From contig NZ_CABHMS010000011.1 of assembly GCF_902167635.1 (NCBI RefSeq), positions 126,501-190,500 of the forward strand: 64,000 nucleotides of DNA. The letters are read 5' to 3'. The notes below the pieces were generated by a model, which saw only the letters and a program-made list of their open reading frames with translations, was not told the origin of the DNA and made no database searches. The position numbers and the translations under genes are program-made. The stretch is from Chitinophaga vietnamensis (lineage in GTDB: Bacteria > Bacteroidota > Bacteroidia > Chitinophagales > Chitinophagaceae). Positions 51,726 through 63,962 of the stretch are shown here, piece by piece (the stretch's first letter is position 1; each line of letters begins with the position of its first letter).

Positions 51726-52910
51726 TTACCATCCCGTCCGGCTATCTTCCCGGTCACGGGCGCCCAGGTCGAAGGTGAGCGTGAAACGCAGGGTATTGGA
51801 GAGCGGGTTCCGCTGGATGCCCGATCCGGAGGGCACCAGGTAGGAGAAATTAAGACCGAAGATATCATACTTGATACCCACGCCGGCCGTGAAATATTTC
51901 CTGTTACCCTTGTATTTATTTTCATTGAAATAACCGGCCCTCACTGCAAACTGCTGGTTGTACCAGTATTCCACGCCGGCGGAATACATCAGCTCCTGCA
52001 GTTCTTCCTTGAGGCCGCCGGGAGCGTCGCCAAAGGATGAGAAGATGCCTTCCAGCACGCTCTTGTTCTTGTAGTTACCGGAAGTATCCGGTGTAGGTAC
52101 CAGCAACTTGTTGATGTCGAGCGCAAAGGTAAGCTGGTTGTATTCATCCATGGCCAGCGTATAGGCGGCGCCGAGACCCAGGTTGGTAGGCAGAAAATCT
52201 TTATTCTGTGCCGAGCTGGTATAAGATATTTTCGTGCCGATATTGGTGATGGCAAAGCCCAGGTTGAGTTTATTCACCCGGCCATCATCTTTCTCATAAT
52301 CTTTCGTATAAAACCCGGAGAGGTCCGCTGCAAAAGCTTTTCCCGCTCTTACCGACTGATCGTTCACTACCTGCCCGCCAGCAAGGTTGGAGTAGATAAA
52401 GCGACCCGCCATACCGATAGAGAAATGCTCCGAGAGCTTACGGGCATAACCCGCATCCACCGCAAATTCGCGCGGATGGAAGTTACCCTGGTCCTGGTTG
52501 GTGACATCCCTGAAGTTGATGCTTCCCAAAGAAAAATATCTTAAAGAGCCGGATACGGCTTCCTTGTCGTTCAATTTCGTATAGCCGCTAACTGTAGCCA
52601 GGAACACATCATTCACCAGCTCTTTGAGCCAGGGCGTGTAGGTAACGGCCAGATTGGAATTTGTAGTGGCAAAAGGTAACTTCGACAGGTTCCAGTAGAT
52701 GGAAGAGGCATCGGGGGAAAGGGCAACACCAACGTCGCCCATGGCGCCGCTGCGGGCGTCAGGCGTAATTCTCAGGAAGGGAACGGCAGTATTAATAGTG
52801 TTTGTACGACCATCTATCTGACCAGTTGAGTCTATACGCTGGGCTGAGGTTTTTAAACTTGTGAAAGTACTGTAAATGAACACTAGGCTCAAAGTTACCT
52901 TTCGGATCAT
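51726..52910 (-). CDS. porV: Type IX secretion outer-membrane protein PorV (LptO)
   Basis: 394 residues with a signal peptide (about 1-23). Outer-membrane beta-barrel of the FadL-like fold that shuttles T9SS cargo from the translocon to the PorU sortase. The start INTAVPFLRITPDARSGAMG, then DVGVALSPDASSIYWNLSKL, is the PorV signature. Strand-rich repeats follow, with a C terminus SNTLRFTLTFDLGARD. It lies 108 bases after porU on the same strand, the expected partner, and 111 bases before ispF. Confidence 0.95.
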   Translation of the reverse strand: MIRKVTLSLVFIYSTFTSLKTSAQRIDSTGQIDGRTNTINTAVPFLRITPDARSGAMGDVGVALSPDASSIYWNLSKLPFATTNSNLAVTYTPWLKELVNDVFLATVSGYTKLNDKEAVSGSLRYFSLGSINFRDVTNQDQGNFHPREFAVDAGYARKLSEHFSIGMAGRFIYSNLAGGQVVNDQSVRAGKAFAADLSGFYTKDYEKDDGRVNKLNLGFAITNIGTKISYTSSAQNKDFLPTNLGLGAAYTLAMDEYNQLTFALDINKLLVPTPDTSGNYKNKSVLEGIFSSFGDAPGGLKEELQELMYSAGVEYWYNQQFAVRAGYFNENKYKGNRKYFTAGVGIKYDIFGLNFSYLVPSGSGIQRNPLSNTLRFTLTFDLGARDREDSRTGW

Positions 52911-53018
52911 GCAATGTTCGTATTTTGATAGGGTGTAAAAATAATCTTATTTATTATATAATTCGGAAAGGGGTTGATTAGGGCGAACGGTAACCATACG
53001 TGTCTTATTTGCATAGGT

Positions 53019-56000
53019 TTACAATAAAACTAATTTTCCGCCCATCATCTTTTTCTTGCCGTTACTGTTGATAGTTAGCCGGTAAAAATAGATGCCTGGT
53101 GATAATTTTGCTCCCGACTCACCAGTTCCATCCCAGGGCATTCCATCAAAACGGCTGCTGTCCGATATTATTGTGTTACGTATTGTTTTCATCAGCTGCC
53201 CGTTCACCGCAAAGATCTCCAGGCTTAGCTGCAATGCCTGTCCCTGCTGATTATGCACAAACGTAAACCGCGTAACATCATGAAAAGGATTAGGATAATT
53301 CCCCAATGCAGATACCATTATGGCTCCCGACCTTACTACTTCAAATTCGATTTCGGTTGTTGCTATGTTATTACACGCGTCCCATGCACTGATCCTCAGG
53401 CGATGTTTCCCCTCCGCGATATCTGACATAGGAAATGCTACAGTTCCTTTACTATAGCTATCCAAAGATGCTTCAAAATAATCATTTAACACAAAATATT
53501 CTGAATTATCCAGTACTGCCACCAGGTTATGCGCCGCCACATTACCGCTGATATTAATACCGGAACTGTCTGTAAGGTCTACCAATAATAAAGGGGAGAC
53601 ATTGACCACGTCTCCGTTCCGGAACAGGCGATTGTTAAGCCAGGCCTGTATCTGCGGGCCCGCCGTATCTTTCGCTGCCGCTCCGGCCGCAGTGGTGAAG
53701 CCTTTATAATAGCCATTGCCATCGATATCATTGTTACTGGTATAATAACTGATCTTGCCTGTACCGCTTGCGCTGGCGTCGGCAGGGATGGTAACAACAG
53801 CTGAAAAACGGCCACCAGACACGGTATGCGTTCCCCTGAACAATACGTGGTCCTGTACCCGGAACGCTGCCACCTGGCTGCCGGCGCTATTGCCCCGTGT
53901 CGTCATCTCGGCAGGGCTGTCATATATCGTCGTATATAGTACGCCGTTATACCCGCTGATCATCTGCCCCTGCATATCTTCCACATGGCCGCTGATCACC
54001 GCTCTGCGCAAGGCTTTCAGGGTATCGGCATTTCCGTTCACCGCTTTGCCGTTAATCGAATCTGTTACTACCCGGTAACGTGGAAAGGCCAGTTTAAGCG
54101 CCGGGTCTCCCAGTAACTGAAATTTACGGTTATTAATAATATCATTAAAGTTATTATGCGTTTGATTTTTAGCTTGCTGCAAAGCCGCGCCCAGACTGGG
54201 CATCAGCCCATCGGCGCCAGGCGTTGTCACGGCTCGCAGATAATTTTGGTGCATCAGGCGGTTGGAAGAGGCATACACCGCCCGGGTTGTGGTCATCAAT
54301 GCAATCGCGCCACTCCGCTGTTGCAGCAACACCTTATGCCCCAGCGATACTACCGCCGGGTTATCGAAGGGCGCAAAATCGCAGGAAGCCGTTACCAGCA
54401 AGGGCAGGCGGTCTTCATTGTGCCAGTCCGCAATGGTATTGGCATCTACCACGCTGGCTTCAGCCAGGCGCGAACTGTTGCCATGACCGCTGTAATTGAA
54501 GATGAGCACGCCCCTGTTAATGGCCGCCGCGATAGCTTTATTCACATCAGGATAGGCGCCATTCACTTTGGGCCAGGCATCGAGGTAAAGCTTGCCTGTA
54601 TTGAGTACCGGCGCTTCGATGGCAATACTGTCGCTCACTGATTCGGCATCACTGAAATGCAGGTTATTATCGCCTTCATCGGCTACAAAGGCAATGCGGT
54701 TGCGCCAATCGCCGAAATGTTGCGGCGCATCGTGATAGTGAATGATCTTGTCTACCGCCAGCGCAGCTTCAGCGGCGTTACGCGCCGGCAGGCGGCCGAT
54801 GCCCAGCGCCACTGGGTTTCGTATATCCGTTCTAGTTATATCGTCATTGTCTCCCAACATACCAAAGTAATCGTCTGTTACATAGGAGCTGAGCGGATTG
54901 AGGGCATTATCACTTTGCCAGGAAGGCACCTCATTGGTATTGTTCTTAACGCGGTAGCGGTAGTCGTAAGACGCGGCGCCAAACAACAGCAGGTAACGGG
55001 GCGCCGGGCCGCGATCATGCAACATTTTGAGAAAGTCGCGCAAGGCAGTAGGATCAGGCGATCCCGAAGCAAATTCATTGTATACCTGGTCCGTGCTCAC
55101 GACCAATACCTCCAGTTGATCGTGCTGGCGATGCCAGGCCGCGAGGCGCTGCGCTTCCGCCAGCAGTGTGCCGGTGGTGATGATCACCAGGCCAGCGGCA
55201 GCCGCAGCATGGATATCCTGGTTAGGCACGGCGCCTGCGGGATACGCCGCCAGAGCCTTGCCCGGATCAAATGCAACGTATTCGTGGAGGCGTTCGTTCT
55301 TCATCGTGAACACCAGCGAATCGCCCTGTTGTACGGCGGGTACCAACAACGGTTGTTGCGGATCAGTGACATCCCATATCTGCGTATAGGCATTGGTGTT
55401 ATATACGGCACAGCGGGCAGCGAGGCCGCTGCCGGCATATTGGGCGGAACGGAAAGGCAGGAAACCGGTTGCTGGCAGCACGGGAGCGCAAGCGGCCTGT
55501 ATCTCGAGGTAGTCCAACCATCCGCGGGCATTGTTATCTCCCGGCAGGAAGTCTACGGTTACCTGCAAGGCAGGATCGGAGGTATACACGCCGCCAGTGC
55601 CGGTAGCGGCGGTACCAAAGGCTTCAAATACGTTGCCGCTAACGGGCAACAGGTACACGGTGGCAGCAGCTTGTTTGTTAATGCTCACATTGAAATTGCT
55701 GCCGTTGATGCCGCGGGCGGCCGCACGGATATTCACCGTCACCGGGCCGCGCGCCGGTGATGGCAGCTGGAAATTATAGCTGTGGCGGATGCCGGCGGCA
55801 GGGTCCAGGCTGAACTCCTGCCCAAACCATTGTTTACCACTGCGCAGGAAATTGAGGCTGTCCCTTTCATAAAACTCGTGATAGTCGATAGTATAAACAT
55901 TAGCTTGCGCAGGAGATGCAGGACTGTCGGGCTTTATACGGGCGCCGGGCGCTTCAAGATTGAGAAAGTACCAGGCCGTATCGCTGTAGATATTGTACTG

Positions 56001-56411
56001 ATGGCTATAGGACTGTGTACCTGAATCGTACTGCCAGCGATGCGGGCCAGGGGCATAGAACAGCATATAGTCGTTACCGTTAAGCTGCCCGTCGCCGCCA
56101 TCGGCGGCGTAGAGGGCTACCGCTTGCAGGTCATCGGGGCGCGGCTGAGCATTCGGCTCCGGCAGCATTTGCCCGCCATTGCCATATAAGCGGATGTGCT
56201 GAGAAGAGATAGCGCTGGTGTTGATGCCCAGCTGTGCGAGCAGGGGCAGGTCGATGCGGTAAATGCCCGGCCCGGTCACGGCCAGCTTGTACCAGTTACC
56301 GGCGGCCAGCACGGAATGCGCCTGGTAACTGCGGGACTGCTGGCCATGCGCTTCCCTGGCCCCTGTGAAGGACATCAGTACAATGGTGATAAAAATACAG
56401 ATGACTTTCAT
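53019..56411 (-). CDS. porU: Type IX secretion sortase PorU (C25 gingipain-like)
   Basis: 1130 residues with a signal peptide. The C25 caspase-like domain has the catalytic dyad: His643 in FNYSGHGNSSRLAE and Cys677 in LLVTASCDFAPFDN. The C terminus is a T9SS-type sorting domain (GNYPNPFHDVTRFTFVHN and a final KMMGGKLVLL), which PorU is known to keep. PorU removes the C-terminal signal of secreted proteins and attaches them to surface lipopolysaccharide. Size matches known PorU (about 1100-1200). PorV follows; gldJ is divergent, 213 bases away. Confidence 0.96.
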   Translation of the reverse strand: MKVICIFITIVLMSFTGAREAHGQQSRSYQAHSVLAAGNWYKLAVTGPGIYRIDLPLLAQLGINTSAISSQHIRLYGNGGQMLPEPNAQPRPDDLQAVALYAADGGDGQLNGNDYMLFYAPGPHRWQYDSGTQSYSHQYNIYSDTAWYFLNLEAPGARIKPDSPASPAQANVYTIDYHEFYERDSLNFLRSGKQWFGQEFSLDPAAGIRHSYNFQLPSPARGPVTVNIRAAARGINGSNFNVSINKQAAATVYLLPVSGNVFEAFGTAATGTGGVYTSDPALQVTVDFLPGDNNARGWLDYLEIQAACAPVLPATGFLPFRSAQYAGSGLAARCAVYNTNAYTQIWDVTDPQQPLLVPAVQQGDSLVFTMKNERLHEYVAFDPGKALAAYPAGAVPNQDIHAAAAAGLVIITTGTLLAEAQRLAAWHRQHDQLEVLVVSTDQVYNEFASGSPDPTALRDFLKMLHDRGPAPRYLLLFGAASYDYRYRVKNNTNEVPSWQSDNALNPLSSYVTDDYFGMLGDNDDITRTDIRNPVALGIGRLPARNAAEAALAVDKIIHYHDAPQHFGDWRNRIAFVADEGDNNLHFSDAESVSDSIAIEAPVLNTGKLYLDAWPKVNGAYPDVNKAIAAAINRGVLIFNYSGHGNSSRLAEASVVDANTIADWHNEDRLPLLVTASCDFAPFDNPAVVSLGHKVLLQQRSGAIALMTTTRAVYASSNRLMHQNYLRAVTTPGADGLMPSLGAALQQAKNQTHNNFNDIINNRKFQLLGDPALKLAFPRYRVVTDSINGKAVNGNADTLKALRRAVISGHVEDMQGQMISGYNGVLYTTIYDSPAEMTTRGNSAGSQVAAFRVQDHVLFRGTHTVSGGRFSAVVTIPADASASGTGKISYYTSNNDIDGNGYYKGFTTAAGAAAKDTAGPQIQAWLNNRLFRNGDVVNVSPLLLVDLTDSSGINISGNVAAHNLVAVLDNSEYFVLNDYFEASLDSYSKGTVAFPMSDIAEGKHRLRISAWDACNNIATTEIEFEVVRSGAIMVSALGNYPNPFHDVTRFTFVHNQQGQALQLSLEIFAVNGQLMKTIRNTIISDSSRFDGMPWDGTGESGAKLSPGIYFYRLTINSNGKKKMMGGKLVLL

Positions 56412-56557
56412 TATCTTGTCCGTCGGTAAAGGATCGTCTCTACAAAGTAGATAAAATAGAAGATAAAAAAATTAAATATATCTTTTTTCTTCTTACAAAT
56501 CATAGATTTAACAGATATCGGGGGGCTTGTATGAGGGTTTCTTACAAATTAAATTAT

Positions 56558-56587
56558 TTCGCTATAAAATAAAAAAGATTACATTTG
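56558..56587 (+). promoter_or_regulatory. Candidate promoter of gldJ (TTC-N19-TACATTTG)
   Basis: TACATTTG (56580-56587) is an exact -7 match with TTC, one base off TTG, 19 bases upstream (56558-56560). The gldJ ATG follows 37 bases later. Confidence 0.6.
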
Positions 56588-56624
56588 CGTTTACTGTAAA
56601 TATAATCGACTAAAGCTGTATCGC

Positions 56625-58175
56625 ATGCGTAGATTAACCTCTTTATCATTGCTCGTAGGTACCAGCGTAATGCTATCCATGACTGCCTGTCATAAAGACG
56701 GCGGGGGACTTTTCGGCAAAAAGAAAGATAAATCTTCTGCTACCGGCTGGACGTATAACGACCCTAAGATGGGCGGGTTCAGCGTAGCCAAGAATAAGGA
56801 CCAGCAAACGGGTCCGGGCCTTGTGTTTGTACAGGGTGGTACTTTTGCCATGGGCGCCACGGAGCAGGACGTAATGGGCGACTGGAACAACATTCCACGT
56901 CGTATTACAGTTTCCTCTTTTTACATTGATGAATCAGAAGTAGCCAACGTGCACTACCGCGAGTACCTGTACTGGCTGGCCCGCGTATACAACGAGTCTT
57001 TCCCGGATGTATACCGCAAGGCTTTGCCCGATACGCTGGTATGGCGTAGTGAACTGGCCTACAACGAGCCGCTGGTAGAATATTATTTCCGTCACCCGGC
57101 ATACAACGACTATCCGGTAGTAGGCGTAACCTGGAAACAGGCCGTTGACTATTGTAAATGGCGCTCCAACCGTGTGAACGAAAAGCTGCTGATGGACAAA
57201 GGCCTGCTCTCCAAAGCAGACGTAACTAATCAGTCGGACGATAATACTTTCGATACCAAATCCTACATGGCCGGCCTGTACGAAGGTACGCCGGGCAAGA
57301 TGTCGAAAGGCACCAAAAGCGAATTTAAAAATCCTGATGGCACGCCGCGCAATGCGCAATTTGAAGATGGTATCATGTTGCCCAACTACCGCCTCCCTAC
57401 AGAAGCTGAATGGGAATATGCGGCGCTTGGCTACATAGGCCAGAACCCTGGCCCTTCCAAGAAAGAAGGCAAACACGGGGAAGAGCTCATCATGAACAAA
57501 CAGGTATATTCCTGGGGCACCAACACCAGCGGCCTGCGTGATATCCGCCGTGGTAACTGGCAAGGTCAGTTCCTCGCGAACTTCAAACGCGGCTCCGGTG
57601 ATAACATGGGCGTGGCCGGCGGCTTGAACGACCGTGCTTCTATCCCTGGTCCGGTACGCTCCTTCTTCCCGAACACCTTCGGTATCTATAACATGTCCGG
57701 TAACGTAGCTGAATGGGTACTGGACGTTTACAGACCACTCACCCCCATCGATGGCGACGACTTCAACTACTTCCGTGGTAACAAGTTCCAGACGGTATAT
57801 CAGAACGAAAACAAAGAGTTCGAAAAAGATAGCCTCGGTCACCTGAAAATGCGCGATGTAACAGATGAAGAAAGCGCCAACCGCCTCAACTACCAGAAAG
57901 GTGATGTGATCAACTACCTCGATGGCGACTCCCTCTCCCAGGTGGAATACGGTTATGGCGTAACTACCCTCATCAACGATAAATCACACGTAGTGAAAGG
58001 TGGTAGCTGGAACGACCGCGCCTACTGGCTCTCACCAGGCACCCGTCGTTTCATGCAGGAAGATATGGCCACCAATACCGTAGGTTTCCGTTGCGCAATG
58101 GACCGCGTAGGTAGCCCTGAAGGTAACAAGTTCAAAACTGGTAACCTGTTCCGCAAGCAAAGACAAAAACGCTAA
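56625..58175 (+). CDS. gldJ: Gliding motility / T9SS lipoprotein GldJ
   Basis: 516 residues. The signal peptide ends SMTACHKD, with Cys22 as the lipid site. The mature protein has an FGE-sulfatase/SUMF1 fold: GPGLVFVQGGTFAMGATEQD, SSFYIDESEVANVHYREYLY, YPVVGVTWKQAVDYCKWRSN, RLPTEAEWEYAALG, NMSGNVAEWVLDVYRP and VVKGGSWNDRAYWL. GldJ and GldK/PorK share this fold; the proximity to porU and porV and the length favour GldJ. It is needed for type IX secretion and gliding in flavobacteria. Ends at a perfect 16-base terminator stem. Confidence 0.9.
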   Translation: MRRLTSLSLLVGTSVMLSMTACHKDGGGLFGKKKDKSSATGWTYNDPKMGGFSVAKNKDQQTGPGLVFVQGGTFAMGATEQDVMGDWNNIPRRITVSSFYIDESEVANVHYREYLYWLARVYNESFPDVYRKALPDTLVWRSELAYNEPLVEYYFRHPAYNDYPVVGVTWKQAVDYCKWRSNRVNEKLLMDKGLLSKADVTNQSDDNTFDTKSYMAGLYEGTPGKMSKGTKSEFKNPDGTPRNAQFEDGIMLPNYRLPTEAEWEYAALGYIGQNPGPSKKEGKHGEELIMNKQVYSWGTNTSGLRDIRRGNWQGQFLANFKRGSGDNMGVAGGLNDRASIPGPVRSFFPNTFGIYNMSGNVAEWVLDVYRPLTPIDGDDFNYFRGNKFQTVYQNENKEFEKDSLGHLKMRDVTDEESANRLNYQKGDVINYLDGDSLSQVEYGYGVTTLINDKSHVVKGGSWNDRAYWLSPGTRRFMQEDMATNTVGFRCAMDRVGSPEGNKFKTGNLFRKQRQKR

Positions 58176-58690: not shown

Positions 58691-60388
58691 TTATCGTTTG
58701 AAAGATAAACGGTAAGTGCCTGTATTGCCGGCCAGGTCTGTCACTTTCATCACCAGCACATGTGGGCCGGGTTGGCAATGTTCATCGAACGTATAGGTGA
58801 GCACGTTAGCCCTGCGGGAGAACATCAGCCATTTGCCATCCAGCTCTGCGCGGTAGCTTTTGATGCCGCTGGCATCGTTCATGGCGAAAGATAGTTTGGC
58901 CGCCCTGGCGAGATTGGCGCCAGGCTTCACTCCCAGCGGCGTCACTTTGGGCGCTACCGTATCTACTTCGAGGTGAAAATTACCAAAGTCGCGGAAAGTG
59001 CCCTTGTACCAACCATTTTCAAACACGGTACCTGAAGTATTATTACTGCCCAGCGCTTCGCGCACCATCACGATCTTGTCGCGCAGGTGCTCCGGCACAG
59101 GCTTCGACGGACGGATACGCAGATCGAAATAATCGTGGATAGGCACTAATGCCGTATGCAGTTTGTAGATATTGGAATATGCCTTCGGACTGGAGGTGGG
59201 TATCTCCTGGTAGTTGAAGCATATCTTGTCGTACAGCGCATTTTCATCGAGGTAAAACTCTACCTGGTTGTTCTCGAAGATATTGCGGGAATCCGGGTAC
59301 ATAGTGTTGGCGCAGGGCTTTTCCGGTTCATCCGGGCCGGCCTGCTGCAGGCCAAACTTCACGGTGGAAGTATTGCCATAGGCATCTTTCACCAGCAGTT
59401 TAATTTCGTGAACGGCGCCGTCGGCCAGATTGATGGTACCATCTCCTTTCAGATCATGGTAGATATCGAGCTTGTTGCCTAGCAACGGAAATACCAATTG
59501 CAGGTAAGGACCGTCGTTCTTCTTTATTTTGTAATCGATATGTGCGTTGAGGTAGCGGGTTTCTTCATACCCGATATTGTCCAGCTGGAAATCGATGTTA
59601 GGTACCTCGTTATCGAACATGGTCACTTCATATATGCCATAGATATGAGGGGCGCTGTTGATGCGATCCACGGCGGAAACGGCCACACCGGCTTTGGCAG
59701 CTCTCACCTTCAGCACAGGCTGTGCAGGCACATAGGTGCTGCCTACCTTTTTCACGGCTACCATCAAAGGTTGTTGTTCATAGATGCTGCGGCTACGATC
59801 ATAGATAGCGATGCGGTAAACGTCGGGCGCCCTTTCATCTTCGATGTTGAAGCCAAAGAGCAGGGGGTTGAGTGGTTTCTCTGTTTGTGTGTTCCTGATC
59901 TCGAAGTGGAGGTGCGGACCAGCGGAGCCGCCGGTATTGCCGCTCCAGGCAACAAAATCTCCCTTCTTCACCGGAAACATGCCTTGTGGTATCTCCAAGT
60001 CGGAAGCCCAGCTTTCGGCCTTGTATTGCTGCTGTTTCACGTATTGTTCCAATGCCGGGAAGAAGCGGTTCAGGTGAGCATATACAGTCGTATAGCCGTT
60101 AGCGTGAGTGATGTAAAGCACGTTCCCGAAGCCCGTATGCGATACCCCGATACGGCTCACATAGCCATCGGCAGCGGCATGCACGGCCAGGTTCTCCTTC
60201 TGCTGCGTTTTGATATCCATGCCCGAATGGAAGTGGTTAGGGCGTAATTCACCAAAGTTGCCGGCCAACTCAATGGGGATATTCAGCGGGTTTCTGAAAT
60301 AGCCTTGCGGATAATTTTTTACCGGACCGTAAGACTGCGCGTGTAACAATTGCGGTAGTAAGCAAAATAAACCAATGACTCTTCTCAT
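58691..60388 (-). CDS. M23-family peptidoglycan metallopeptidase, catalytically intact
   Basis: 565 residues from ATG 60388 (MRRVIGLFCLLPQLLHAQS, signal peptide). The LytM-type domain sits at the N terminus (about 40-165) with all zinc and catalytic residues: H54 and D58 in NHFHSGMDIK, H105 in TVYAHLNRF, H159 and H161 in GPHLHFEI. The remaining 400 residues are beta-rich and unrecognised, perhaps a binding region. It should cut peptide bridges in peptidoglycan. An ATG at 60415 would add 9 residues but lies before a TACATTTG element. It pairs with bcp downstream. Confidence 0.93.
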   Translation of the reverse strand: MRRVIGLFCLLPQLLHAQSYGPVKNYPQGYFRNPLNIPIELAGNFGELRPNHFHSGMDIKTQQKENLAVHAAADGYVSRIGVSHTGFGNVLYITHANGYTTVYAHLNRFFPALEQYVKQQQYKAESWASDLEIPQGMFPVKKGDFVAWSGNTGGSAGPHLHFEIRNTQTEKPLNPLLFGFNIEDERAPDVYRIAIYDRSRSIYEQQPLMVAVKKVGSTYVPAQPVLKVRAAKAGVAVSAVDRINSAPHIYGIYEVTMFDNEVPNIDFQLDNIGYEETRYLNAHIDYKIKKNDGPYLQLVFPLLGNKLDIYHDLKGDGTINLADGAVHEIKLLVKDAYGNTSTVKFGLQQAGPDEPEKPCANTMYPDSRNIFENNQVEFYLDENALYDKICFNYQEIPTSSPKAYSNIYKLHTALVPIHDYFDLRIRPSKPVPEHLRDKIVMVREALGSNNTSGTVFENGWYKGTFRDFGNFHLEVDTVAPKVTPLGVKPGANLARAAKLSFAMNDASGIKSYRAELDGKWLMFSRRANVLTYTFDEHCQPGPHVLVMKVTDLAGNTGTYRLSFKR

Positions 60389-60393
60389 AAACG

Positions 60394-60401
60394 CAAATGT
60401 A
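60394..60401 (-). promoter_or_regulatory. Candidate -7 element of the M23 peptidase gene
   Basis: Minus-strand TACATTTG, an exact consensus match, ends 5 bases before the ATG at 60388. It argues for that start over 60415 and for a near-leaderless transcript. No TTG at -33; that region is the hairpin at 60410-60439. Confidence 0.4.
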
Positions 60402-60409
60402 CAAATATT

Positions 60410-60439
60410 GCGCATACCCGCCGTACGGCAGGTATGCGC
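60410..60439 (-). terminator. Hairpin after the ABC transporter operon
   Basis: GCGCATACC (60410-60418) pairs with GGTATGCGC (60431-60439), with an inner GCCG/CGGC stem and one mismatch, 8 bases after the ATPase stop on the minus strand. The following bases are AT-rich but not a clean T-run. Confidence 0.7.
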
Positions 60440-60446
60440 GGGATAG

Positions 60447-61256
60447 CTACAGCTGTTCCCTGATCTGTGATATCAGCGCTGTAAACTCTGGCTCACGGCG
60501 CACTTCCGGCTGCCAGGCCAATCCCATCTTGCAAAGGTCATACTCCTGTATAATGGTGGCGCCTTCCCTGCCAGCCTCTTGTGCCATCACCCAAACGGTA
60601 TCGGAGATGGCCGCCGCATTCACAATATCATGGCTCACCAGGATCAGCGTATTTGTTTCCTGTAAGGTGGATACCTTCAGCAGCAGCTGAATTACTTTGT
60701 CGATCATCACCATATCCAGCCCGGAAAAAGGCTCGTCCAGCAAAATGAATTTGTTGCCGGTCAATACCTGCTGTAAAATGCTCACCCGCTGGCGCTGGCC
60801 ACCACTGAGCTGTGCGGGGTATTTCTTCAGATGTGCTGTCAGCTCGAAAGTGGCAGCGTAATCCATAATGATCTCTCTCTTTTCACCTTCCGTCAATCTT
60901 GCACTCGCATTATCCAGTCCTATCTTCAGGTTATTATAGATCGTGCGATGCTGGAACAGGATATAATTCTGCGGCACAATGCCCACCTCTCCTGCTTTTA
61001 CAGGGTGCTGGTCGGCATCGATCCTGATCACGCCTGCAGTAGGCGTCATCAGGCCGGATAATATTTTGAACAGCTGTGTTTTGCCGATACCGCTTCTGCC
61101 AATCAGCGAAACTACTTGTCCCTGCTGCATATCAGGGCGGTGAATATCGTAGACGGAGAAATTAATATCCCGCAGGATGGTTTTGCCGGCATATTGCAGG
61201 CTGATATTTTCAGCAGTTAGCAAGGCCGATGTTTTCGTATATGCTTTGGCGTTCAT
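60447..61256 (-). CDS. ABC transporter ATP-binding protein (NitT/TauT type)
   Basis: 269 residues from ATG 61256, overlapping the permease stop by 4 bases (ATGA). Walker A is LIGRSGIGKTQLFKIL, the signature LSGGQRQRVSILQQVL, Walker B FILLDEPFSGLD, with the H-loop in LILVSHDIV. It resembles the nitrate/sulfonate/taurine import group. It powers the permease encoded immediately upstream and probably serves the unusual OmpA-fused binding protein. Last gene of the apparent operon. Confidence 0.93.
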   Translation of the reverse strand: MNAKAYTKTSALLTAENISLQYAGKTILRDINFSVYDIHRPDMQQGQVVSLIGRSGIGKTQLFKILSGLMTPTAGVIRIDADQHPVKAGEVGIVPQNYILFQHRTIYNNLKIGLDNASARLTEGEKREIIMDYAATFELTAHLKKYPAQLSGGQRQRVSILQQVLTGNKFILLDEPFSGLDMVMIDKVIQLLLKVSTLQETNTLILVSHDIVNAAAISDTVWVMAQEAGREGATIIQEYDLCKMGLAWQPEVRREPEFTALISQIREQL

Positions 61257-62032
61257 GAGTTGCGTGTTTGAAGTTTGGTGTAAGGGAATAACCATTCGCG
61301 GAATTTACCGAGGATGTAGTCGAAGAAGATGCCCAGTAGGAAGATGATCACCAATGTGCTGAACACAGTATCCAGCTGCACGTATTTATTAGCCCTGATG
61401 AGCATCACGCCAAGGCCGCCTTCACTCATGCTGAGGCCTTCCACAGAGGTGATCATCAGCCACGCAATGGCGAAGTTCTGGCGCATCACTTCAAATACCT
61501 GGTCGAGGCGGCCCACCACCACTACTTCCCACAGCGTTTTCCAACTGTTCATGCGCAGGGTGGTGCACAGTTCGAACTCCTGCTTGTTGATGCCATCGAT
61601 CACCGATAACAGCGAGGTTACAAAAAAGGGGACAATACCGAAGATGAGCAGGCTGATCTTGAGATCGTGCCCGTTTTTCGTCCATAGGGTAAACAGGAAA
61701 ATCAGACCCGTTAATGTCAGATACCTGCACTTGATCACGAAGCGCGCTACCGGGCTGAATACCGGTATGATCGAAAGATAGCTGATCACCAGCGCGATGA
61801 AGATAGAGAGGAACATCCCTTTGATCGTGAGCACCACGCTACTGAAAAGGTTATCCACAAATGCAGGATCCTGTATCATATGCCCGAGCGATTGCAGTAC
61901 TTTCAGTGGCGTAGGTATCAGCCCACCACCGCTGATCTGCCAGCAAACCAGCGCCAGCACTATTTCCAGCACAATGAGTGTTGTCATGGAGCGGCGACTG
62001 AGTACCCGCAAAGGCTCAAAGATGTGTTTCAT
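61253..62032 (-). CDS. ABC transporter permease (BPD/NitT-TauT type)
   Basis: 259 residues with about six hydrophobic segments (LIVLEIVLALVCWQI, GMFLSIFIALVISYLSIIPV, YLTLTGLIFLFTLW, LLIFGIVPFFVTSLLSVI, FSTLVIIFLLGIFFDYIL). The EAA-type coupling loop is ELCTTLRMNSWKTLWEVVVV followed by GRLDQVFE. This is the inner-membrane channel of an importer, with its ATPase coupled by a 4-base overlap. It is separated from the binding-protein gene by 163 bases holding a large palindrome. Confidence 0.92.
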   Translation of the reverse strand: MKHIFEPLRVLSRRSMTTLIVLEIVLALVCWQISGGGLIPTPLKVLQSLGHMIQDPAFVDNLFSSVVLTIKGMFLSIFIALVISYLSIIPVFSPVARFVIKCRYLTLTGLIFLFTLWTKNGHDLKISLLIFGIVPFFVTSLLSVIDGINKQEFELCTTLRMNSWKTLWEVVVVGRLDQVFEVMRQNFAIAWLMITSVEGLSMSEGGLGVMLIRANKYVQLDTVFSTLVIIFLLGIFFDYILGKFREWLFPYTKLQTRNS

Positions 62033-62073
62033 TTTAGAAGGGATTTTTTATTCAAGTATGCTTTGGTGAGATA

Positions 62074-62193
62074 ATTTGAGGATGTGAGAATTTTTGGATT
62101 TTCGGATTTGGTTCTATCAAGTCGTTCCTGAAGCTTCAGGAGCGACTTGATAGAACCAAATTTCAACATCCGAAAATCAAAAAATCCTCAAAT
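62074..62193. repeat. Compound palindrome between the OmpA-fused binding protein and the permease
   Basis: The inner 56 bases (62106-62161) are a perfect palindrome with 28-base arms and no loop. Outer arms share ATTTGAGGAT and ATTTTCGG segments with small offsets and carry TTGGATTTTCGGATTT, the family core. It ends 2 bases from the binding-protein stop and begins about 41 bases before the permease ATG side. Likely a 3' stabiliser or partial terminator that gives more binding protein than transporter. Confidence 0.9.
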
Positions 62194-62195
62194 AT

Positions 62196-63962
62196 TTATT
62201 GGCCTAGTACGATCTGTACGCGGCGGTTCTGCGCGCGGCCATCAGCGGTGCTGTTGTCGGCAACGGGTTGAGCGGCGCCATAACCTTTAGACTCGATACG
62301 ATCGGCAGCGAGGCCTTTGCCGAGGAGGTAGTTCTTTACGGCGGCGGCACGTTGCTCAGACAACTGCTGGTTAGCGGTTTCGTTGCCCACATTATCCGTG
62401 TGACCATACACGCCTATCTTCAGGCCTTCAGCTACCACGGCGCTTTTCAGTATCTCGTCCAGCACCACATGGGAGTTGGATCTGATCACGGCGCTACCGG
62501 TTTCAAACTGTATCTGGTACGATTTGGACGATACCGCGCTGGTAATGTTCTCTGCGTACTTTTCCTTGATGGCAGCGCCTTCCAGCAGTTCGGGGTGGTT
62601 GGCCAACACAGAGGCAAGGAATGATTTATCCACCACTGCTGTGTACACTGGATAGGTAGGCATGATATCGGGATACATTTTCACCATGATATCACCGAAG
62701 GTGGTATACACGATCTTGTACCGGTCGATATTATCCTTGCCCATACCGAAGGTGTTGGCGGCATCGGAGAGATTGAATGCCATAGAACCACCGAGGGATA
62801 CGGTTTGCCCCTGTGCATCTTTTTCTTCTGTGCCGTTATAGTACTTCAGCCAGTAGGCGCCATTCTGTTCATTGTACACTTTCGCAGAAACCTCGCCGGC
62901 AAAGGCTTTGGCGTCGTTGAAGGAGCGTACCTGGTCGCCGGCCTGCGCCAGCGCAATGATCAGGTTTTCGATATCCGTACGGTGATCATACGCAAACTTT
63001 TTGATGGTGATGGTGATGTTCGGCATCTGTGAAGCGTATTCACGGGTGGATGCGATGTTCACCAGTCCGCCTTTTTTCTGCGCCACGTTCACGTCGCCGG
63101 GCGTCCAGGTGGCTACGCCATCAACGCCTACGGTCGTGTCTTTGCTGATCTTTTTACCGTCTACGATGAGCTTGCGCGTTTCTTTATACCCGGCGATGTA
63201 TTTGGCGCCGGCATCGAGGAAATCGTTTGCTGCCACCAGGTTGATGGCTTTGGCATCGTAGGTGGTTTCATCGGGGTTCACGCGGATACCGTTGTCGCCA
63301 GCCCATTTCAGCAGGATGTTCACGTCGCCGTCGCGGAGCACACCGGCCACTGTTTTACCGATCGCAGTTTTAGGATCGCGCTTCCAGTCGGCGGGGCCCA
63401 TCAGTTTATCTTCACCATAACTTTTACCCATGGTATAGAATGCGATGGGTTGGTATTCGGGGCCGAGTGGCTCCAACTCCTTACTCAGTGCGGCAAAGAA
63501 GGCGGGCATACCATCGCCCATGAAAGAGGCGAATATGCCGGTAGCATTGGGATTGCTTTTGTACTCCTGTGCAAATTTCGCCAGGTCGGCGATGGATTTG
63601 TTACAGTCATCCTGGCGCACCAGTTCTACCTGCAATTTTGCTTTATCGATGAGCGAGTGCTGGGTGGTATGTTGGCCACCATTGGCATACATGAGCGCGA
63701 ACTGCGAGTTCCAGGCCATTACACGCCAGGAGATCTTCGTACCGCCATTCACCGCTTCCGTATTCCCGGGCAGTGGCAATTTGCTGGCGTTGCCGCTGAG
63801 CGATGCCTCGGGCGCATCGGGCAACTGCACCTTACCGATGTCAGTAGCGGCTTTCGCCTGTTGCGGGCGCTTGTCCCACCAAAATATTTTTGTTGCATAG
63901 ATGGCGCCTAAGAGCAATACGATGCCCATAACCTTTCCACCAGGTTTCACTTTCATAGCCAT
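62196..63962 (-). CDS. Solute-binding protein fused to an OmpA peptidoglycan-binding domain
   Basis: 588 residues. A single hydrophobic segment (about 12-29, MGIVLLLGAIYATKIFWW) looks like an uncleaved inner-membrane anchor. Residues about 75-460 resemble a periplasmic ABC substrate-binding protein (ISWRVMAWNSQFALMYANGG, NATGIFASFMGDGMPAFFAA, INLVAANDFLDAGAKYIAGY). Residues about 480-588 form an OmpA C-terminal domain: IQFETGSAVIRSNS, YGHTDNVGNETANQQLSEQR, NRRVQIVL. D523 and R538 are 15 apart, the same spacing as OmpA D271 and R286, which bind diaminopimelate. The permease and ATPase genes follow. So the protein would span inner membrane to wall. Substrate unknown; I recall similar fusions annotated as phosphate-type. 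Upstream context is outside the window. Confidence 0.88.
   Translation of the reverse strand: MAMKVKPGGKVMGIVLLLGAIYATKIFWWDKRPQQAKAATDIGKVQLPDAPEASLSGNASKLPLPGNTEAVNGGTKISWRVMAWNSQFALMYANGGQHTTQHSLIDKAKLQVELVRQDDCNKSIADLAKFAQEYKSNPNATGIFASFMGDGMPAFFAALSKELEPLGPEYQPIAFYTMGKSYGEDKLMGPADWKRDPKTAIGKTVAGVLRDGDVNILLKWAGDNGIRVNPDETTYDAKAINLVAANDFLDAGAKYIAGYKETRKLIVDGKKISKDTTVGVDGVATWTPGDVNVAQKKGGLVNIASTREYASQMPNITITIKKFAYDHRTDIENLIIALAQAGDQVRSFNDAKAFAGEVSAKVYNEQNGAYWLKYYNGTEEKDAQGQTVSLGGSMAFNLSDAANTFGMGKDNIDRYKIVYTTFGDIMVKMYPDIMPTYPVYTAVVDKSFLASVLANHPELLEGAAIKEKYAENITSAVSSKSYQIQFETGSAVIRSNSHVVLDEILKSAVVAEGLKIGVYGHTDNVGNETANQQLSEQRAAAVKNYLLGKGLAADRIESKGYGAAQPVADNSTADGRAQNRRVQIVLGQ

Follow-up and report, generated by a model that had tools for sequence, protein, structure and literature searches.

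A five-gene operon of Chitinophaga vietnamensis and huge phages that may couple a wall-tethered ABC importer to a membrane scaffold

The genes described here lie at and just beyond one end of a 64,000-nucleotide stretch of the ~6.3-Mb genome of Chitinophaga vietnamensis (contig NZ_CABHMS010000011.1; C11:126501-190500), hereafter called the window. A preliminary description based on the window reported a 588-amino-acid fusion protein followed by the permease and the ATPase of an ATP-binding cassette (ABC) transporter, and all three open reading frames (ORFs) were confirmed at their positions on the minus strand. The fusion protein, here termed SBP-OmpA (62196..63962; SBP, solute-binding protein), consists of a transmembrane (TM) anchor at residues 9-27, a linker, a putative solute-binding domain of the SsuA/TauA type at residues ~83-457 and an OmpA domain at residues 486-580. 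Sequence past position 63962 was read for further operon members, and two more genes were found on the minus strand beyond the end of the window. One of these, TMC, encodes a 328-amino-acid protein with two TM segments followed by a coiled coil (L011:4503-5489 = C11:190502-191488) and is located directly upstream of SBP-OmpA with a gap of 39 bases. The other, PMC, encodes a soluble 223-amino-acid coiled-coil protein without TM segments (L011:5493-6164 = C11:191492-192163) and is separated from TMC by 3 bases. Thus, the ABC genes do stand beside the fusion as described, but the set comprises five genes rather than three.

The anchor of SBP-OmpA is a single hydrophobic segment whose score of 1.61 is barely above the threshold used for such segments (1.6), and it is preceded by two lysines. 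Among 144 distinct SBP-OmpA relatives, 143 carry a segment scoring above 1.6 near the N-terminus and two match a crude lipobox pattern, in agreement with the membrane anchor that had been proposed. The OmpA domain matches PF00691 with an E-value of 3.1e-22 (79.2 bits versus a cut-off of 27.2) and retains both D523 and R538, which we take to be the peptidoglycan site of OmpA domains. The Asp, within a G-[HNYF]-T-D pattern, is kept in 134 of the 144 relatives, and an N..LS..RA..V pattern (a motif drawn from general knowledge) is matched by 128. This region, which also matches models of MotB, ZorB and TssL-type proteins, is a predicted peptidoglycan-binding domain. Membership in the ZorB family of Zorya systems was considered and rejected, as the OmpA part alone matches and a match to full-length ZorB was not obtained.

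Assignment of the binding domain relied on comparisons between profiles. When SBP-OmpA from the window was searched alone against Pfam, no binding-protein model was matched at E<=0.1. A profile prepared from five window-type sequences, by comparison, matched a profile of four relatives (three from phages and one from a bacterium) with 97.6% probability over 313 columns. When 82 related binding domains were aligned, 20 of them matched NMT1 models, and the SsuA_fam model is matched by relatives of a second kind, those that underlie the four-relative profile. A 15-sequence profile of these second-kind relatives retrieves the solved structures of TauA (5e-17) and SsuA (8.5e-15) from the PDB. The window-type profile itself matched no PDB chain. 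These comparisons suggest that the binding-protein-like domain of the preliminary description is a divergent member of the SsuA/TauA type, detected by profile and diverged beyond the reach of single-sequence Pfam searches. At the profile level only, they also answer the possibility, raised with the preliminary description, that residues 75-460 lack a binding-protein fold.

In an alignment of 75 bacterial and phage sequences, residues S181, G183, D185 and P288 never vary, and D281, W286 and D290 are kept in at least 90%, with Lak-C1 and phage G deviating at W286 or D290. This is a pattern expected for ligand binding. Of the five proteins, SBP-OmpA is the best conserved in bacteria, with a mean identity of 0.72, and the closest named binding domain among the best 80 of 363 stretches with a relative is that of Chitinophaga solisilvae (90% identity).

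The permease (259 amino acids; 61253..62032) has four hydrophobic segments over threshold and is assigned to BPD_transp_1 (PF00528, 30.2 bits versus a cut-off of 26.4). The ATPase (269 amino acids; 60447..61256) scores 93.5 bits with PF00005 and carries the Walker A, LSGGQ, Walker B and H-loop (SHD) motifs. The stop codon of the permease and the ATG of the ATPase share the letters ATGA, which yields the 4-base overlap reported previously. An alternative start listed for the ATPase, which would give 282 amino acids, sits 39 bases upstream of the 269-amino-acid start; in many relatives the ATPase is 263-269 amino acids long and overlaps the permease by 1 or 4 bases. Assignment to a solute-specific subfamily (taurine, sulfonate or nitrate) was not obtained with NCBIfam models, whose scores were far under their cut-offs with no equivalog assigned (for example, 33.1 versus 342 bits for TauC). 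Taken together, the family matches, the intact ATPase motifs and the kinship of the binding domain give good support to a predicted NitT/TauT-like type-I ABC importer, as was first suggested for this locus.

The best library match of TMC is PspA_IM30 (PF04012; 20.9 bits), and this model is matched at E<=0.01 by 18 of 71 TMC members, the best at 2.9e-6. When PspA_IM30 was run over 40 whole genomes at E<=0.001, its five matches were one PspA above the cut-off and four TMC proteins, with no other protein detected. These results make a kinship of TMC with PspA/ESCRT-III likely, and we infer that PMC and TMC together constitute a membrane scaffold.

The conservation of this arrangement was evaluated by scanning one genome per species, which yielded 363 stretches encoding a domain related to the window-type binding domain. 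The best 80 loci were fetched; 11 were too short and four carried a truncated gene, leaving 65 in which the gene is complete and flanked by at least 2.5 kb on each side. The order PMC-TMC-SBP/OmpA-permease-ATPase is found in 63 of these 65 bacterial loci (the exceptions are L149 and L169), so the alternative that the fusion lies far from ABC genes in all relatives is refuted. A near full-length match to the query (residues 113-588) was present in 14 of 36 genomes of the same genus, that of C. vietnamensis included. All five genes occur in the same order in the window genome and in 13 of 13 other same-genus loci, some of which come from genomes also represented among the best 80. The observation in the preliminary description was right but incomplete, and its interpretation is partly supported. 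The binding-protein kinship, the membrane anchor, the wall-binding domain, the NitT/TauT-like importer and the conserved neighbourhood are upheld; its ideas that a protein pinned to both membrane and wall could sense wall distance or capture wall-derived ligands are conjectures that these data neither favour nor oppose.

Across an even sample of 395 Bacteroidota genomes, the window-type binding domain was detected in eight and TMC in 16, all eight lying within those 16; at most four or five candidates were scored per genome, so these counts may be low. The operon is therefore a patchy accessory set. Identities of the five proteins are correlated between genes across 132 loci (0.87-0.97), with values of 0.93 for PMC-TMC, 0.96-0.97 among SBP-OmpA, permease and ATPase, and 0.87-0.90 between these two blocks; the values are descriptive because locus pairs share ancestry. 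Our reading of these patterns is that the set consists of two modules, a pair for the scaffold and a trio for transport, which usually travel together. Plasmid records gave no match with the window SBP domain as the query. With a type-2 SBP-OmpA query, 48 plasmid records matched, none over more than 80% of the query length, and each of the matches listed covers one domain only.

Parts of this architecture are familiar from other systems. MotB, ZorB and TssL-type proteins combine an N-terminal TM segment with a C-terminal peptidoglycan-binding domain. SBP-OmpA has the same layout, but inserts a solute-binding domain and is partnered by ABC proteins rather than by ion-channel or secretion components. 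In OpuA and GlnPQ, binding domains are tethered by fusion to the permease, without a wall anchor. The binding domain encoded here would likewise be held at its transporter, whereas in OpuA and GlnPQ it is permease-fused and lacks the attachment to the wall. TauABC and SsuABC are alike in the kinship of the binding protein (by profile) and in the families of permease and ATPase. The set in the window differs from them in having a membrane-anchored, OmpA-fused SBP, two added coiled-coil genes and no assigned substrate.

A closely related bacterial operon type has been noted previously. Ravi et al. 2024 (PMC11237479) mention an association of PspA/Snf7, ABC and PBPB-OmpA proteins in bacteria, with OGG56892.1 as the example, propose that it links membrane remodelling to solute transport, and note that in Bacteroidetes PspA, Snf7 and a coiled-coil protein are encoded as neighbours. 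Because of that mention, the fusion beside ABC genes is already in print for bacteria. The operon type described there shares with the set in the window an ABC ATPase, a permease, an SBP-OmpA fusion and, if the likely kinship of TMC holds, a PspA/Snf7-type protein with a TM segment. It also names an AAA+ ATPase, which is absent from the five genes here, no AAA+ model having been run over the flanks. The passages of that paper on the operon type do not speak of phages, whereas the set in the window has phage forms. No experiments on the bacterial operon were found in the parts of the literature searched.

The phage forms were first evident from tblastn searches of phage records, in which the window protein matched 37. 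Among the matches listed, a 462-kb phage covers 86% of the query at 34.8% identity, Lak phages and phage G match in part, and some records match the OmpA domain only. With the type-2 query, 36 phage records matched, and in 20 the match spans at least 80% of the query; these comprise 15 Prevotella (Lak) genomes (540-552 kb), two records of 735 kb, two of phage G and one faecal fragment. Neighbourhoods were inspected in one representative of each kind. All five genes are present in the window order in LR756500 (462 kb), Lak-C1 and LR756501 (735 kb). Phage G encodes permease, ATPase, PMC, TMC and two SBP-OmpA proteins, whose genes are in tandem (L014:6885-10090) and whose products are 47% identical. 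Four of the five genes were located in MT835556, in which the ATPase was not found.

Four scans of viral contigs yielded 101 contigs with a relative, distinct by name with some being near-copies, and 85 of these carry all five genes (60 in the window order and 25 in the phage-G order). The complete set is present in 23 of 23 relative-bearing contigs of at least 200 kb; this is not a prevalence among huge phages, because contigs without a relative were not counted. Phage markers were sought in 30 records, comprising 27 contigs chosen mostly by length and three named phages. TerL (PF03237) was detected in 15 and Portal_T4 in 14, for a union of 18 of the 30; the other 12, including the 416-kb contig of locus L049, are viral by IMG/VR classification. 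The TerL nuclease model PF20441 was uninformative because it matched none of the 30 records, the three named phages included.

On a FastTree tree of 149 rows, phage and bacterial labels interleave with at least five changes. The bacterial rows come from the best 80 of the 363 stretches, the chosen outgroup does not split off at a single branch, long branches are joined to each other, and one change depends on L049, whose contig showed neither TerL nor portal. Before the tree was built, 16 loci were removed (same-genus copies, L136 and the diverged L116-L119), as were duplicates of identical sequence and proteins shorter than 480 amino acids, and the tree carries no information on the direction of transfer. 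A genome of the same genus as C. vietnamensis (G032, locus L047) holds a phage-type version, with an SBP-OmpA 62% identical to that of LR756500.

In the literature searched, which included huge- and jumbo-phage and viral-transporter papers and excluded subscription papers and supplements, no mention of the five-gene set in phages was found. A Nature 2020 paper on huge phages states in general terms that they encode proteins predicted to reside at the bacterial membrane or surface, and a Jug-phage preprint mentions a pspA-like gene adjoining terD. LR756511 (595 kb) carries an altered set (L209:8893-17455) with a permease, an ATPase, a vWA protein and a pair of SBP-like proteins, of which one clearly matches OmpA and the other scores under the cut-off; as judged by eye, two coiled-coil proteins and a lipoprotein lie between its members. 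On the 416-kb contig of L049 (L049:1632-6039), genes resembling NAD synthase and nicotinate phosphoribosyltransferase, recognized by eye, precede the five-gene set.

We hypothesize that the five genes form an envelope operon in which a wall-tethered importer is coupled to a membrane scaffold and supports the envelope, and that huge phages carry it for the envelope of their host. We place the probability of this reading at roughly 0.45. Its importer part is well supported, and we infer the coupling, the ligand and the role. The binding domain would be restricted to the zone that separates the membrane from the wall, where it would feed the permease, and PMC and TMC would assemble at the cytoplasmic side of the same membrane into a scaffold like that of PspA/ESCRT-III. 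Scaffold, importer and wall would thereby be physically linked. Such an assembly could stabilize or repair the envelope under stress while importing a small solute, and huge phages might keep the set so that the envelope of a large, long-infected host cell stays working.

Several observations weigh against this hypothesis. The score of TMC is below the PF04012 gathering score (20.9 versus 33.9 bits), five of the nine known TMC carriers among the 40 genomes scanned (with the full set or the PMC-TMC part) gave no TMC match to PspA_IM30, and tropomyosin scores as well as Vipp1 when TMC is compared with the PDB. PMC-TMC pairs are present without a transporter in the 15-16 kb fetched at L234-L237, which represent two copies in each of two genomes (G148 and G242) of one family. 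Furthermore, TMC occurs alone at L233 and L243, and a weak PMC-TMC pair without a transporter occurs at L242. At L048, which comes from another family, PMC and TMC are accompanied by an SBP-OmpA that is 40% identical to that of Lak-C1, with no permease or ATPase beside them. At L238:6330-7397 and L239:8348-9433, the place of SBP-OmpA after PMC-TMC is taken by a TM-anchored protein that has a Ser-rich linker but no OmpA domain; one of these proteins matches Ppx/GppA under the cut-off (E 3.4e-4) and the other matches no Pfam family. The last two loci suggest that the periplasmic part beside PMC-TMC is exchangeable. Because pairs, lone TMC genes and ABC-less or altered sets occur, coupling of the scaffold to the transporter is not obligatory.

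Parts of the set are also missing in six of 66 viral loci versus two of 65 bacterial loci with adequate flanks, and the OmpA Asp is lost in phage-G-type proteins, including both copies of phage G itself. A role in phage infection is drawn from gene presence alone. We also considered the proposal that a complete wall-anchored importer with an ESCRT-III-like scaffold has been exchanged between bacteria and huge phages of up to 735 kb, which would employ it to rebuild and hold the envelope of the infected cell, the operon in the window being its cellular form. This proposal appears doubtful.

A simpler possibility is that the operon encodes a plain nutrient importer for taurine, sulfonate or nitrate-type uptake with a tethered SBP, whose coiled-coil proteins only organize it and which phages carry as auxiliary metabolic genes. 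The intact catalytic motifs fit this account, as do the facts that TauA and SsuA are the solved proteins closest to the related binding domains and that SBP-OmpA is the best conserved of the five proteins in bacteria. However, it leaves unexplained the near-constant presence of PMC-TMC and the occurrence of this pair without a transporter, and no solute-specific equivalog cut-off was reached by the importer. We therefore regard it as unlikely, if the best placed of the competing explanations.

We consider it improbable that the genes serve in conflict with phages, with bacteria using a sensor in the envelope to stop DNA from entering or to lyse the cell in defence, and phages using it for superinfection exclusion. 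The patchy distribution in bacteria (8/395), the repeated label changes on one tree and the resemblance of the OmpA part to that of ZorB (2.5e-11) are consistent with such a role, but the ZorB similarity is limited to this one domain. Among eight proteins run against PADLOC, the permease had no match, the scores of PMC and TMC were weak and typical of coiled coils (best 6.1e-4), and the ATPase matched mads_3 (3e-21 over ~100 residues) as ABC-type ATPases may. The neighbours are ordinary genes by eye (enolase in the genus, ATP synthase in L244), no systematic search for defence genes having been made nearby. Equally improbable is a role in which the ABC pair is not an importer at all and acts, on the model of FtsEX, as a signalling or mechanical unit whose binding domain senses a wall fragment; the wall anchor, the scaffold-like partners and the far divergence of a binding domain with no PDB match would suit it, but the permease is of the ordinary BPD_transp_1 importer type and the putative ligand-binding residues are invariant or nearly so, variation at W286 or D290 in Lak-C1 and phage G notwithstanding.

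Other genes in the vicinity were recorded as well. A gene for an M23 peptidase (window positions 58691-60415, same strand) begins ~31 bases past the ATPase and keeps this position, as judged by eye, in Chitinophaga loci L035-L040 and not in L041-L046. Because the position is kept in one Chitinophaga locus group only, the peptidase is probably a mere neighbour. Positions 51726-58175 form a gliding/type IX secretion system (T9SS) region with a GldJ-like lipoprotein slightly below its cut-off (442.8 versus 458.2 bits) and, by eye, PorV- and PorU-like genes.

If our hypothesis of a scaffold-coupled, wall-tethered importer is true, importers would have a set position between the membrane and the wall, and solute uptake would be tied to a membrane-remodelling scaffold. 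It would also bring to light an envelope function retained in one piece by some of the largest-genome phages. What surprises is that several of the largest phages carry the genes as a block, the bacterial operon having been described only lightly. Phage G and Chitinophaga strains are in culture, which makes the system testable. Given that the same five genes occur in bacteria and in huge phages, they may represent an envelope machine common to cells and viruses.

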